Source of the DNA: Lachnospiraceae bacterium
Lineage (GTDB): Bacteria; Bacillota; Clostridia; Lachnospirales; Lachnospiraceae
NCBI GenBank assembly: GCA_017626325.1
Contig: JAGAIZ010000024.1
Location: 1 to 59,555 of the forward strand
Reading direction: 5' to 3'
DNA: 59,555 nt
Part shown: positions 53,258-59,374 of the stretch, in pieces
Numbering within the stretch: the first letter of the stretch is position 1
Layout: every line of letters starts with the position of its first letter
Notes under the pieces: model-generated
Database searches by the model: none
The model's input: the letters and a program-made list of their open reading frames with translations, nothing else
Told to the model about the DNA's origin: nothing
Made by a program: the position numbers and the translations under genes

Positions 53258-54520
53258 CTACAACTGGCATGGACAAGAAATTCTGCCTGTGACAGCGCTT
53301 GCTGCCGCTACGGCCGGGCTTGCCAGATAAATCTCAGAATTGACATGTCCCATACGTCCTACGAAGTTACGGTTGGTGGTGGATACGCACCGCTCTCCTT
53401 CCGCAAGAATACCCATATAGCCGCCAAGACATGGTCCGCAGGTCGGTGTGCTCACTACCGCGCCGGCCTCGATGAAGATACGCAGAAGCCCTTCTTCCAT
53501 CGCCTGCATGTAAATCGTCTGGGTCGCCGGAATCACGATGCAGCGCATTCCTTTCGCCACATGTCTTCCTTTCAGCACCTTCGCCGCGATCCTCAAATCA
53601 TCCAGTCTGCCGTTGGTACAGGAACCAATCACTACCTGGTCAATATGAATGTCCTCCGTAATCTCGTCGATGGTCTTCGTATTCTCCGGCAGATGCGGGA
53701 ATGCAATCGTAGGGCGCAGAGCGCCTAAATCGATCGTATACTCTTCGTCGTAAACCGAGTCTTCATCCGCTTCATAAACCGTATAATTTCTCGTGGAATG
53801 TTCCTTCATATATGCGATTGCAAGATCGTCTACCGGGAAAATACCGTTCTTGCCACCTGCTTCGATCGCCATATTGGCAATGGTAAAACGATCGTCCATG
53901 GTAAGGTTCGCGATCCCCTCTCCCACAAATTCCATAGATTTATATAATGCACCGTCCACACCGATCATACCGATGATATGTAAAATCACGTCCTTGCCGC
54001 TGACCCATTCGGAGGGCTTGCCTACGATATTGACCCTGATCGCGGAGGGCACCTTAAACCATGCCTTGCCCGTCGCCATACCGGCCGCCATATCGGTGCT
54101 TCCCACGCCTGTGGAAAAAGCGCCCAGCGCGCCGTAAGTACAGGTATGAGAATCTGCGCCGATAATCACATCGCCCGCCACAGTCAGACCTTTCTCCGGA
54201 AGAAGCGCATGCTCGATACCCATCTCTCCTACTTCAAAATAATTCGTAATCTCATTGCGGCGCGCAAATTCCCTGACGCATTTACAGTGCTCCGCAGACT
54301 TGATATCCTTATTCGGCACGAAATGATCAGGCACGAGCGCGATTTTATCCTTGTCAAATACGCCGTCTACCTTCATCTTCTCCATTTCTTTGATCGCGAC
54401 AGGGCTGGTAATATCGTTGCCTAATACCAGATCCAAATCCGCCTCGATCAACTGTCCCGCCTCTACCTTGTCTAATCCTGCGTGGGCAGCCAGTATTTTC
54501 TGGGTCATCGTCATTCCCAT
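53258..54520 (-). CDS. leuC: 3-isopropylmalate dehydratase large subunit
   Basis: 420 residues, the shorter form typical of anaerobes and archaea. The iron-sulfur cluster Cys residues are in GSCTNGR and [10 protein letters not shown], and the [12 protein letters not shown] motif binds substrate. AAGGAGG lies 8 nt before the ATG. It is followed by leuD and is divergent from a LysR regulator. Confidence 0.96.
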
Positions 54521-54556
54521 GATCGTTTCCTCCTTGTTGCGTTATATTTCTTACGA

Positions 54557-54602
54557 CGCGGTGTCGTTCCCGGCAATCATGTGCTTCCTGTGACGCACCG
54601 CG
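54557..54602 (-). other. Hairpin in the leuC leader
   Basis: CGCGGTG (54557-54563) pairs with CACCGCG (54596-54602) around a 32-nt loop, upstream of the leuC start. I see no T-box or Leu-codon leader. Confidence 0.4.
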
Positions 54603-54623
54603 CTTTCTGTCTTGCTATATCTG

Positions 54624-54652
54624 ATTCTAACATAAATGCAGACATTTGAGAA
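54624..54652 (-). promoter_or_regulatory. leuC promoter region
   Basis: On the minus strand, the extended -10 TGTTAGAAT (54632-54624) has a weak -35 (TTCTCA) 17 bp upstream. Confidence 0.5.
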
Positions 54653-54679
54653 ATAGTATCTTTTCATGTCATCCATAAC

Positions 54680-54708
54680 TTGTAGTTATAGAATATAAAT
54701 GTTATAAT
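54680..54708 (+). promoter_or_regulatory. Promoter of the LysR-type regulator
   Basis: TTGTAG (54680-54685) and TATAAT (54703-54708) are spaced by 17 bp. Confidence 0.65.
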
Positions 54709-54765
54709 TACATAAATTCATATTGCAAATTATACGCTGAAGCAAGATAAGGAATCATCTCACCT

Positions 54766-55689
54766 ATGGAACAAAATCTCAACCTTTATCACATATTTTA
54801 TGAAGTGGCAGGCTGCCGTAATTTCTCTGTCGCCGCAAAGAAGCTCTATATCAGCCAGCCCGCTGTCAGCAAGGCTGTTTCCAGACTGGAAGAAAATCTG
54901 GGCGTCCTTCTTTTTCAGCGTTCTTCAAGAGGCGTGACACTTACCCGCGAAGGAGAGATACTCTACGCCCATGCAAAGCAGGCGTTTACTTCTCTTAAAT
55001 CCGGGGAAGAGCTGCTTCGGGAAGCCTCTTTATCCCATATCACATACCTGTCAATCGGCGTCAGCACGACACTGTGCAAATATGTACTTCTGCCGCTGTT
55101 AAAACCCTTTATCATGGAGAATCCGAATATCAAAATCAGCATCTCCTGCCAGTCCACCTTCGATACCATTACGGCCATAGAGAAAGGCGAAATCGACCTG
55201 GGGTTAGTGGGTCTTCCGCCGGAAAACACATTCCGGAAATCCGGTCAGGAAATTACCATTCTCCCTCTGACCGCTATCGAAGATATCTTCGTGTCCACCG
55301 ACACTTATCTGCGCTCTCTGCAGGCCAAATACAAAGCCGATGCGCAGGCACAGCAGGATTTCTTTCGGGAAGCCGCCTTTATCATGCTGGATAAGGGGAA
55401 CATATCCCGCAAGCACGCCGACAGTTTCTTAGACGCGCACCAGATTACGCTTCACAATATTATGGAAGTCAACAATATGGATCTGGCAATAGAATTTGCC
55501 AGAGCAGGACTGGGTATCGCCTGTGTCATCAGTGATTTCGTGAGAAAAGATCTGCAAAGCGGCATCCTTAAGGAGCTTAAGCTGGGACACCGGATCCCGC
55601 GCCGACAGATTGGATTCGTGTATCCGAACCGCTCGGCGTACAGCGACGCCATCGATAAACTGGTGAAATATTACGGCGCCCTTCATTAG
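54766..55689 (+). CDS. LysR-type transcriptional regulator
   Basis: 307 residues. The N-terminal winged helix-turn-helix (about 18-60) contains NFSVAAKKLYISQPAVSKAV, and a periplasmic-binding-like effector domain follows (about 90-300). The divergent position beside leuC makes it the likely regulator of leuCD, with a leucine-pathway intermediate as a possible ligand; this is inference. It is followed by a bidirectional terminator. Confidence 0.92.
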   Translation: MEQNLNLYHIFYEVAGCRNFSVAAKKLYISQPAVSKAVSRLEENLGVLLFQRSSRGVTLTREGEILYAHAKQAFTSLKSGEELLREASLSHITYLSIGVSTTLCKYVLLPLLKPFIMENPNIKISISCQSTFDTITAIEKGEIDLGLVGLPPENTFRKSGQEITILPLTAIEDIFVSTDTYLRSLQAKYKADAQAQQDFFREAAFIMLDKGNISRKHADSFLDAHQITLHNIMEVNNMDLAIEFARAGLGIACVISDFVRKDLQSGILKELKLGHRIPRRQIGFVYPNRSAYSDAIDKLVKYYGALH

Positions 55690-55861: not shown

Positions 55862-57385
55862 CTAGCTATCCAGAAGCTTCTCCAGTTCTGTTATCATCTT
55901 GTTGATATTCTCCACCTGTGTAGACAAAGCAAGAATATCCTGGGCGTTGCTCTGTACCATCTCGGCGATATTGCCAAACTCTGTATTTTCGCTTTCGATG
56001 CTCGAGGCAATATCCTCGTTAATGCTGACTGTTTCCCGGATGACTTCGTTCTGCTCATTACGGATTCTGTCAGCCTGTCCAACGGCTTCCAGAGACTTTT
56101 TCAGAAGCTCCATCATCGTGCGGATGCCTTCTACCGTATCCACAATGACCTGATTCTGCTTCAGAAGCTGCTCCGTATTCTCATTCATAAACGAAGACAC
56201 TTCCGTCGCTCCGTTCTGGATACGCAGTACGATATCTGTTACATTCTTCAGGGAATCCTTGGTGTTGCTGGCAAGATGTCCGATTTCCTGCGCCACTACC
56301 GCGAAGCCTCGTCCCGATTCCCCGGCTCTTGCCGCCTCGATGGAAGCATTCAGCGAAAGCAGGTTGATGGACTCGGCGATTCCGTTAATAATTTCCAATG
56401 TCTCGCCCATTTCACCGGACTCCTGCAAGAGTCTGTCCGTTACCTCTTTGGTCTTATTGGTGGAGTTTTCCACTTCCTCGCTCATTGCCATCAATTCATT
56501 TAAGGACTTCTCGTTCATAGTGGATATGTCAACCAGCTCTTTGGAAATCGAATCCACATTCTGCATCCGTTGTTCCATTTCCTCGCTGCGTCTCTCCAGA
56601 TCTGCAAGATTTCCTTTGCTTTCCCGGGATTTATCCATCATAACAGAACTGTTTTCCAGAAGGTTCTCGCTGATAGCGGAAATCTCCTGTGTGGACGCGC
56701 TCTGGTTCTGTGTGGTTTCCACCAGCACATGGCTGGCATCCCCCAGCTTCTCCGTGATGACGCTTACATTTTCCAGCAGATCCGTTACTTTGGCATTGTT
56801 CTTCTCTAACTGCTCTTTCTTGGCGTTCAGTAAGAATTTATTAATAAATATAACCAGAACGACCACGCCCAGAAGGCTCAGCGTAATACAAATGGTACGA
56901 AGTATCGTATCGCTCCAGAAGAGGCTTTCCACCGGACGGGTAACAGCATCCCCCACAAACAGTATAATCAGAGAAACCACCTCTGCGACACCGCATTTTA
57001 CGATAAATCCGATATCCAGGAAAAAGGCCATCAGAATGATAAAATAAAACGCGAACATCCATGATTCCTTGGATGGGAAAAACCATGTAATCAGGTTAAT
57101 ATTCGCTATTAACACAACCAACAGATAATTCTTAAGCAGATGCTCCAGACTATCCGATAATACTTCCTGCTTCATGCTCGCGCGGATCAGACTAAATCCC
57201 AAAATATCCTCCAATACGACAACCGCTATGAAGATACCGCACAGCAGCCATGAAACAGTGGGATACAAGCCTATAAGCTTCAATCCCGGCAATACGACAC
57301 CCGCCGCCGACGCACTCGCGCATACAATAGCAATTATCCAAATCGCTACTCTTTTCCTATACTCCTGCAATATTTCGTTGTCCAT
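55862..57385 (-). CDS. Methyl-accepting chemotaxis-type receptor with a six-helix membrane domain
   Basis: 507 residues from the ATG at 57385 ([13 protein letters not shown]), with AAGGGGG upstream. About six membrane helices (13-190) are joined by short loops; there is no large outer ligand domain and no clear HAMP. The cytoplasmic part is a coiled signalling domain with the hairpin tip [20 protein letters not shown] (about 355-375), which contacts CheA/CheW. It starts 44 bp after the KAS III-like gene. No che genes are in the window. The ligand is probably membrane-soluble, by inference. Confidence 0.9.
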
Positions 57386-57428
57386 ACAATAGTTCCCCCT
57401 TGCTCGTGCATTCTCAATGAAACACTTA

Positions 57429-58421
57429 TTATATTTTGTATAATACGGCATTCATGGAATAACCTGCAGCCACCGAACAGAAAAGCAGATACCCCTCTTC
57501 CGGTATATCCTCCCAGACCTCGTTTAACGCCATGATCGGACTCGAGACTCCCGTATACCCATATTTATCACCCACGAAAACATATTTCTCTTTCGAAGCG
57601 CCCAATTTCTCCAATGTCAGTAAATTATCCGCGTCTGAGAACTGAGAGAAAAGAAAATACTGTATTTCCTCGACATCCACATGATTATCCTCCAGAAGTT
57701 CCTTGATAATTTTAGTCCAATTATCTGACAAGAAACCAAAATCAAAAGGATTCCATGCCATTCGACGGTTTTCCTTTGGAACCTCGTACAACAATTCCTT
57801 CGAATGTCCGCATTCCGGTAATACTATCGTATCATGATAATCGGAATCTGTAAAGTATTCAGAAGATAAAATACCACGTTTTTCCGTTTCTTCCACCGAT
57901 TCTAAGATAACGGCCGCGGCAGAGTCGCCGAAGGTCGGATAAACCACGGAATCCTTATATTTTACAACAGAACTTACATGCATGCTGCCGATAACGAGAG
58001 CCTTCTTTATCGCCTTTCTCCTCTGCATATAACCTGCCGCAACATCAAGCCCCACCAGCATTCCCGTACAATTGCAGTTCATATCAAATACCCTGTGGGC
58101 GTTTACCGCTCCCAGCATATGGCTCAGCTTCAGGGCATTGGTAGGCATATTGTACTCCGGCGTGTCCGAGATAAAGATAATCATATCCAGTTCCTTAGCG
58201 TCCAGCTTCAGCTTCTCCAGCACATTCAAAGCCGCCTCATATCCCATGGATAACGAAGACTCGTCCCTGTCCGCGAAGAACCTCTTCTTGCGGTTCAAGT
58301 GCTTCATCAATCCGTGCACCTCCACGCCGAGCCTTCTGAAATATTCCTCAAAAAATTCATTGCCGACTTCATTCTTAGGCGTATAAGTTCCGGTTCCCTT
58401 AATTAAAATATTCCGCTCCAT
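57429..58421 (-). CDS. KAS III-like thiolase-fold protein with an incomplete catalytic triad
   Basis: 330 residues of the FabH/KAS III fold. The nucleophile is kept as Cys118 in DMNCNCTGM. The second and third residues of the usual Cys-His-Asn triad are not: the HQAN motif reads SQFS (residues 259-262) and the late Asn aligns with Tyr289 in KYGYTGVSS. Ordinary decarboxylating condensation is therefore doubtful; acyl transfer or a non-decarboxylating reaction is possible. GGAGGATTAGC precedes the ATG, inside an ATG-GAG-GAT-TAG mini-ORF. It lies between a hydrolase and an MCP in one operon. Confidence 0.88.
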
Positions 58422-58441
58422 GCTAATCCTCCATTCCGAAA

Positions 58442-59227
58442 CTATTTATTTAGTTTCTCAATAAAAGACGTAATTTTCTCCCGGAACAATTCCGTATCCT
58501 CGAACAACGCGGCATGTCCTCTGTAGGGAATCATCAGAAGCTCGCTGCCCGGGATCGTCTTCCATGTCTCCACTGCCGCCATGGGCAGCACGATCGTGTC
58601 GTCACATCCCTGTACTATCAGGGCCGGAATATCGATCTGCGCGCAGTCCGCCAGACGGTTATACCGGTTAGATGCCATCAGATCTCCGTAGCTGATGACA
58701 TCCGACACCTTAGTGGTATCGAAATGATGAATAATCTCCTGCTTCTTTTCTTCCGGCACATCCTCGCCGACCAGAGCCGGAAATACATCCGCTACCACGA
58801 ACTGCTCTGCCGGCACGCTCTTTAACTCGTCCACAAGCGGCGTATAGCTGTTCAAATCGCCGCCGCTGCTTAATACCACCATTCCGCTCAAAGGCAGTGT
58901 CTTACGTATCGCGATCTCACAGGTAATGGCGCCGCCCATAGAATAACCCAGCAGGACAATCCGGCCGCCGATTACATTCCGGCCCTGTAATTCCGTAATC
59001 GTATATTCCACATCGTCCGCAAAATCCCTGACTTCCTCAGGTTCCTCTCCGCCGGACTCTCCGTGCGCTGTCAAATCAAGCACAATACAATTATATTGTG
59101 TAAACTTGTCCGCTAACGGCATCATACCTTCCTTCGTCATCGAAGAGCCATGAATAAATACCAGCGTCATATCGCTAAGACTGTTCCCAATCTGTCTGTA
59201 CGACAGCATTACCTTTTCTTTTGCCAT
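58442..59227 (-). CDS. Alpha/beta hydrolase
   Basis: 261 residues from the ATG at 59227 (MAKEKVMLSYRQIG), with GGAGG 8 nt upstream. The oxyanion HGSS motif is near residue 26, the nucleophile elbow is GYSMGG (Ser about 96), the acid is in GCDDTIV and the His is in RGHAALFED. It is small, cytoplasmic and lacks a signal peptide. First gene of the hydrolase - KAS III-like - MCP operon; a role on acyl esters or thioesters made or used by the next gene is a reasonable guess. Confidence 0.9.
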   Translation of the reverse strand: MAKEKVMLSYRQIGNSLSDMTLVFIHGSSMTKEGMMPLADKFTQYNCIVLDLTAHGESGGEEPEEVRDFADDVEYTITELQGRNVIGGRIVLLGYSMGGAITCEIAIRKTLPLSGMVVLSSGGDLNSYTPLVDELKSVPAEQFVVADVFPALVGEDVPEEKKQEIIHHFDTTKVSDVISYGDLMASNRYNRLADCAQIDIPALIVQGCDDTIVLPMAAVETWKTIPGSELLMIPYRGHAALFEDTELFREKITSFIEKLNK

Positions 59228-59345
59228 TTTCTTTTCCTCCGAAATCTTCCCCTGAATCATTTGCCGTTGTTGCGTATTGCGAGTCCGCATAAAACATCGT
59301 TACATTTAGACAAAATATCCGTCGTTTCTGCTGCATTTATACATC

Positions 59346-59374
59346 ATTGTATTCTAATTTTGTAGTTTTGTCAA
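59346..59374 (-). promoter_or_regulatory. Promoter of the hydrolase / KAS III-like / MCP operon
   Basis: On the minus strand, TTGACA (59374-59369) and TACAAT (59351-59346) are spaced by 17 bp. No terminator is seen before the MCP gene. Confidence 0.82.

Follow-up and report, generated by a model that had tools for sequence, protein, structure and literature searches.

A KAS III-like protein without the FabH histidine and asparagine, encoded beside a six-helix chemoreceptor in a Lachnospiraceae bacterium

Contig JAGAIZ010000024.1 of a Lachnospiraceae bacterium (assembly GCA_017626325.1), whose 59,555 nucleotides are called the window here, carries three genes on its minus strand. They encode an alpha/beta hydrolase, a protein resembling 3-oxoacyl-(acyl carrier protein) synthase III (KAS III; FabH in the fatty acid pathway), and a methyl-accepting chemotaxis protein (MCP). 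A first-pass annotation, made from the letters alone, had described these genes as a cassette behind a single promoter, and had proposed that together they could make, edit and sense an acyl signal. All three open reading frames (ORFs) were found again and Pfam agrees with their naming (Table 1). The KAS III-like gene falls in a separate clade whose examined members nearly always lie next to a signalling gene.

Table 1. Features of the locus in window coordinates
Feature	Coordinates	Strand	Description	Evidence
Alpha/beta hydrolase	58442..59227	-	261 aa, MenH/esterase-like	Pfam, start based on ribosome-binding site, motifs, relatives
KAS III-like protein	57429..58421	-	330 aa	Pfam, NCBIfam, PDB matches, alignments, trees
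MCP	55862..57385	-	507 aa	MCPsignal match, hairpin tip conserved
Six-helix transmembrane input domain of the MCP	56777..57385	-	203 aa	AlphaFold2 model, domain sharing, fold comparison
Promoter-like site	59346..59374	-	TTGACA-N17-TACAAT, 5' of the hydrolase gene	Scan, 11/12 matches

Ribosome-binding sites read in the sequence favour starts at 59227 for the hydrolase (GGAGG precedes MAKEKVML) and at 57385 for the MCP (GGGGGA precedes MDNEILQ), and the longest-ORF starts of both genes were dropped. With the MCP starting there, it does not overlap the KAS III-like gene; the gaps are 20 nt between the hydrolase and KAS III-like genes and 43 nt between the latter and the MCP gene. The promoter that had been claimed is present as a promoter-like site, and it ranks first among the 16 sites that the scan returned (shuffling expects 10.1 +/- 2.8). 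The same scan gave four terminator-like sites, none of them between the three genes. Because of this and of the short spacing, the three genes are likely cotranscribed. In the closest relative (L067), the upstream alignment shows that TTGACA is kept, with TAAACT as the -10 box; the full TTGACA is not kept in the other three aligned loci, where the upstream alignment is poor.

Several tests place the second gene product in the KAS III fold and outside FabH. It matches the Pfam families ACP_syn_III (3.6e-18, 65.7 bits for a cut-off of 24) and ACP_syn_III_C (3.1e-13, 50.1 bits for a cut-off of 26.6), and its best sequence matches in the PDB are FabH proteins. Both curated NCBIfam cut-offs for FabH are missed, with 138 bits against 249 for PRK09352 and 133 against 292 for TIGR00747. 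Active-site columns were counted in an alignment of 96 family members and 27 FabH-like control proteins from relatives. The catalytic cysteine, Cys118 in the window protein, is kept in all 96 members and all 27 controls. At the position of the FabH histidine (Ser259), 90 members have Ser, 6 have Thr and none has His, whereas all 27 controls do; at that of the FabH asparagine (Tyr289), Tyr stands in 96/96 members and Asn in 27/27 controls. Gln260, which follows Ser259 and matches the Gln of the FabH "HQ" motif, is kept, as is the oxyanion glycine (Gly320) in 95/96 members. The residues by which FabH holds its substrates have mostly gone: the coenzyme A (CoA)-contacting Trp32 and Arg36 occur in 0/96 members each (26/27 controls each), Asn247 in 3/96 (27/27), and the Arg after HQAN (HQANxR) in 2/96 (26/27), in E. 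coli numbering. Asn115, Asn117, Cys118, Gln260, Tyr289, Thr290 and Gly291 are invariant in 96/96, and P202 and G205 are further invariant columns.

Two quick trees separate the family from FabH as one clade; one holds 74 members and 8 FabH proteins, the other 36 members, 28 FabH proteins and 3 sister proteins. The host has a FabH-like gene of its own on another contig, among neighbours that we take to be fabK-, fabF- and fabG-like. Ordinary FabH is therefore rejected on scores, active-site columns, lost CoA and acyl carrier protein (ACP) contacts and trees, and the description of a KAS III-like protein that keeps only the Cys nucleophile of the triad holds. According to passages in PMC10054515, Cys112 is the nucleophile of FabH, the amides of Gly306 and Cys112 form the oxyanion hole, His244 and Asn274 stabilise the enolate, and Arg36 and Asn247 position the substrate. 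Since the Cys and the oxyanion Gly are kept and the His and Asn are lost, we infer that the family could accept an acyl group and would be unable to condense it with malonyl-ACP.

For the neighbourhood of the gene, 397 genomes of the family were searched, of which 11 hold a KAS III-like member at E<=1e-40. Scanning 84,980 species genomes turned up 246 relatives, and the best 80 of these 246 loci were read. The 96 genes from these 80 loci, the window and 14 whole-genome loci were merged at 95% identity to 82; these still share ancestry, and clustering of the 96 at 80% identity leaves 59 clusters. Neighbours were counted with a longest-ORF caller into which profile hits were forced. Spurious ORFs may hide some adjacencies, as in L064 and L078, where a small ORF lies between the KAS III-like gene and its partner. 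Two records (L070 and L086) are titled Muribaculaceae bacterium, but their sequences are near those of Lachnospiraceae and the titles are presumed wrong.

The first-pass annotation expected the three genes to stay together in related genomes. For the KAS III-like gene and the MCP this is borne out, with direct adjacency in 57/82 and an MCP within three genes in 61/82. It fails for the hydrolase, which adjoins in only 12/82, and in 20/82 the direct neighbour is a small gene whose product has the SpoIIAA fold. One or the other signalling partner adjoins in 77/82, and three genes (L062, L065 and L146) have neither within three genes. MCP adjacencies number 58, since one gene counts twice, and take four layouts: with both genes on one strand the MCP is downstream in 44 and upstream in 6; it is upstream and divergent in 7 and convergent in 1. 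Within four genes, the families that recur in the 59 clusters are the MCP (45), the SpoIIAA-fold gene (15), the hydrolase (9) and an ABC-ATPase type (9) that is common in any genome; no other family exceeds 3. A later draw of 129 genomes of the phylum added four family genes in two genomes, three beside a SpoIIAA-fold gene and one with neither partner.

Some loci have features of their own. One genome (G338) holds three diverged KAS III-like copies, of which L063 lies directly beside its own MCP, L064 has one two ORFs away and L062 has neither partner. In Ruminiclostridium papyrosolvens (L081:6174-11818) the divergent MCP/KAS III-like unit is duplicated in tandem, as if the pair duplicates together. 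At L061:6352-7769 the assembly breaks the MCP gene beside the KAS III-like gene into two reading frames. In three Clostridium-type clusters a convergent gene follows the KAS III-like gene (L100:2376-3665, L111:9121-10410 and L114:9127-10524); from its sequence it looks like an adenylating enzyme of the phenylacetate-CoA ligase type, which might supply an acyl donor.

The small alternative partner was assigned to the SpoIIAA/STAS fold, at 11-14% identity to its five best fold matches. It shares this fold with SpoIIAA/STAS proteins and DUF3478, but differs from them in its pairing with a KAS III-like gene and in fitting no Pfam family: in a scan of four members none passed the cut-off, the best E being 0.066. 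A sequence search of the PDB gave a best E of 0.49. The gene is present in 21/21 genomes chosen for a copy adjacent to the KAS III-like gene; at three of the loci an MCP is present as well. It occurs in 4/28 genomes of the MCP type, three times weakly, and is absent from one genome with neither partner. The two partner types hardly mix, and the switch between them needs at least two changes on a quick tree of the KAS III-like proteins.

The chemotaxis kinase CheA accompanies the family. All 11 genomes of the 397 with a KAS III-like member are among the 211 with CheA (p 8e-4), and the count becomes 13/13 once two congeners are added. CheA was also found in 49/50 wider genomes, picked from those behind the best 80 loci, a set for which the background rate was left uncounted.

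A neighbourhood of this kind could arise by chance or inheritance, with no joint function. From 301 MCPs in 13 genomes, and assuming one gene per 1050 bp, chance adjacency to an MCP would be about 1.4%, and 12 of the 15 members in the same genomes are adjacent. Of 27 control loci with ordinary FabH genes, with flanks of 1.5 kb at most, 4 have an MCP within 1.5 kb, all in one genus, and none has a SpoIIAA-fold protein or a hydrolase of this type. Because such inherited adjacency occurs in FabH controls, MCP adjacency alone can be accidental. Against mere linkage stand the 57/82 adjacencies among members down to 30% identity to that of the window, the four layouts and the repeated switch between two signalling genes. 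In two genomes whose first copy lacks an MCP neighbour, a second copy lies beside a six-helix MCP, although these copies were found via the MCP and are thus a biased sample. Pairwise distances of the KAS III-like proteins and their MCPs correlate with r 0.85 over 58 pairs (0/2000 permutations reach it) and with only 0.46 for pairs below 60% KAS identity, both values including shared species history. We regard linkage without function as very improbable.

The FabH loci with an MCP come from four congeners (L011, L017, L018, L022, and also L234). As laid out in L011/L234 and L022, the MCP is convergent with FabH at the end of the fab operon. This is apparently one inherited arrangement; it possibly reflects chance, or another link between acyl metabolism and chemotaxis.

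The MCP itself is a chemoreceptor by its MCPsignal domain (PF00015, 1.7e-25, 90.3 bits) with the conserved hairpin, and genome G000 holds two CheA matches. Its input part had been read as a bundle of membrane helices with no outer ligand domain, and the AlphaFold2 model agrees, with six predicted helices at a mean predicted local distance difference test (pLDDT) score of 92.3. A fold comparison finds that the model resembles the six-transmembrane-helix (6TM) domains of adenylyl cyclases, a relation of fold similarity only; Foldseek alone gave no match at E<=0.001. Some cyclase 6TM modules are reported to be regulated by fatty acids or lipids (PMC12505454, PMC11606603). Because of this likeness, a lipophilic ligand for the modelled receptor is plausible.

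The domain is not confined to this pairing. It also occurs on GHKL kinases, on GGDEF and GGDEF-EAL proteins and on a hybrid kinase, and 6TM MCPs without an adjacent KAS III-like gene exist. In a FastTree phylogeny with long-branch warnings, 16 unlinked receptors branch among 58 linked ones, which requires at least 12 changes. An MCP that serves the KAS III-like protein exclusively is rejected on these grounds. The six-helix domain appears to be a membrane input module common to these proteins, so far without a name. In L179, L180, L181, L183 and L195 it forms the N-terminus of proteins of about 400 aa that adjoin response-regulator-like genes and are often divergent from a 6TM MCP; those scanned (L179, L183 and L195) are GHKL kinases, and the neighbour in L183 is a LytTR regulator. 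The GGDEF, GGDEF-EAL and hybrid-kinase fusions lie in L193 and L196.

The hydrolase matches Abhydrolase_6 (1.4e-16) and has a full triad of Ser96 (in GYSMG), Asp210 and His238, whose columns are invariant in 15/15 aligned relatives, that of the window included. Relatives occur in 5 of the 397 genomes, in 4 of which they adjoin the KAS III-like gene. Its adjacency in only 12/82 (in 11 it lies upstream on the strand of the KAS III-like gene, in 1 it is convergent) rules out a fixed three-gene cassette, and its presence needs at least five changes on the quick KAS III-like tree. The hydrolase is an optional member of the locus.

How the parts might work together can be put at two levels. We consider it fairly probable that a non-condensing protein of the thiolase superfamily forms a chemotaxis module, in which an acyl-Cys or a released acyl product stimulates a 6TM chemoreceptor or a SpoIIAA-fold switch. 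The more specific mechanism, which we favour but hold tentatively, is that a condensation-dead KAS III-like protein makes or modifies a lipophilic acyl ligand, which the 6TM MCP reads. In this mechanism, an acyl group would be taken onto Cys118 with the help of the oxyanion-hole glycine; with the enolate-stabilising residues and the FabH contacts to CoA and ACP lost, it would be transferred without condensation. In some lineages the adjacent hydrolase may assist by releasing or turning over the ligand. The six-helix membrane domain would pass the signal via the MCP to CheA and on to the flagellar motor, and cells would steer by, or adapt their swimming to, an acyl compound that they or their neighbours produce metabolically. 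The acyl-signal proposal of the first-pass annotation thus survives in part: a receptor for a lipophilic compound is plausible from the 6TM likeness, while the hydrolase is optional, about a quarter of the members (20/82) pair with a SpoIIAA-fold protein instead, and some 6TM MCPs have no KAS III-like gene next to them.

Nearly as likely as a ligand maker read by its receptor is an intracellular sensor. Here the KAS III-like protein would make no product; depending on the state of lipid metabolism, it would be acylated on Cys118 or bind an acyl chain close to it, and would dock on the MCP or on the SpoIIAA-fold partner to alter that partner's signalling. The exchange of partners and the existence of soluble MCPs are better accounted for in this way. 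Three points speak against it: the seven active-site columns invariant in 96/96 are more strictly conserved than simple binding would lead one to expect, elsewhere the 6TM domain acts as a sensor in its own right, and a hydrolase with a full triad recurs upstream. The membrane-embedded input, the hydrolase and the receptors that lack a KAS III-like gene fit better with a ligand that is made and received.

Nutrient handling is a third reading, in which the KAS III-like protein and the hydrolase would act on an acyl or beta-keto compound from outside, towards which the MCP would steer the cells. It draws on a sister KAS III subfamily, seen in two of the 129 genomes (G558 and G601), in which Thr stands in place of the His and Tyr in place of the Asn. 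In G558 (L251:6059-9161), next to the sister gene stand an alpha/beta hydrolase gene and one for a Peripla_BP_6 binding protein. In G601 (L252:5934-12390) one operon-like stretch combines a hydrolase and a Peripla_BP_6 protein with a CoA-transferase, a further KAS III-like gene and a soluble MCP. Such sister loci number only two, however, and no binding protein or CoA-transferase recurs near the chemotaxis-linked family in the 59 clusters, so we rate this reading as unlikely.

The favoured mechanism, in which an acyl ligand is made and then read by the 6TM MCP, has partial parallels in known systems. With FabH, the KAS III-like protein shares the thiolase fold, the Cys nucleophile, the oxyanion Gly and the Gln of the HQ motif; it differs in the change of His to Ser/Thr and of Asn to Tyr and in the loss of the CoA-contacting Trp and Arg. 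PqsD and DarB are KAS III-type signal makers. A further known case is the photopyrone synthase PpyS, which, according to passages in PMC4578411, uses Cys-His-Asn and a catalytic Glu and acts with the LuxR-like receptor PluR. Both systems tie a KAS III-fold protein to signalling, but in ours the His and Asn are absent and the partner is an MCP rather than a LuxR-like protein. With these residues missing, the protein does not fit the head-to-head synthases OleA and PpyS, and their dimer-crossing Glu is found in 0/96 members at position 92, a column placed by spacing only.

For the receptor side, the CqsA/CqsS pair (CAI-1) and class III adenylyl cyclases offer a likeness, as both have a compact 6TM input without an outer ligand domain. 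As in CqsA/CqsS, one gene is proposed to make the ligand and the other to read it. The output here is an MCP, and CqsA is a different enzyme from the KAS III-like protein. A full-text search, with most subscription journals outside its reach, found no printed account of a chemoreceptor that pairs with a KAS III-like protein; the single paper that it brought up, PMC13066512, is by its title about a Leptospira transcriptome. The pairing hints at a link, so far undescribed, between fatty-acyl chemistry and navigation in motile gut and soil bacteria.

To our knowledge, most chemoreceptors have no known ligand, and assignment is among the most difficult for 6TM inputs that lack an outer domain. A near-constant KAS III-fold partner gives a handle on the ligand of such an MCP, because it predicts acyl chemistry and names Cys118 as the residue. 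By record titles, the system covers gut Lachnospiraceae, Clostridium, Ruminiclostridium and Paenibacillus. If the proposal is true, membrane-lipid or acyl metabolism would be joined to motility, KAS III-like proteins would be added to the parts of bacterial sensing, and a KAS-based system for acyl sensing or signalling would be spread over several Bacillota lineages.

Downstream of the MCP, the window holds an ORF that we take to be leuC-like and a LysR-type regulator, the latter named from a domain search (53258-55689). In L067, ORFs of similar size occupy matching places after its MCP.
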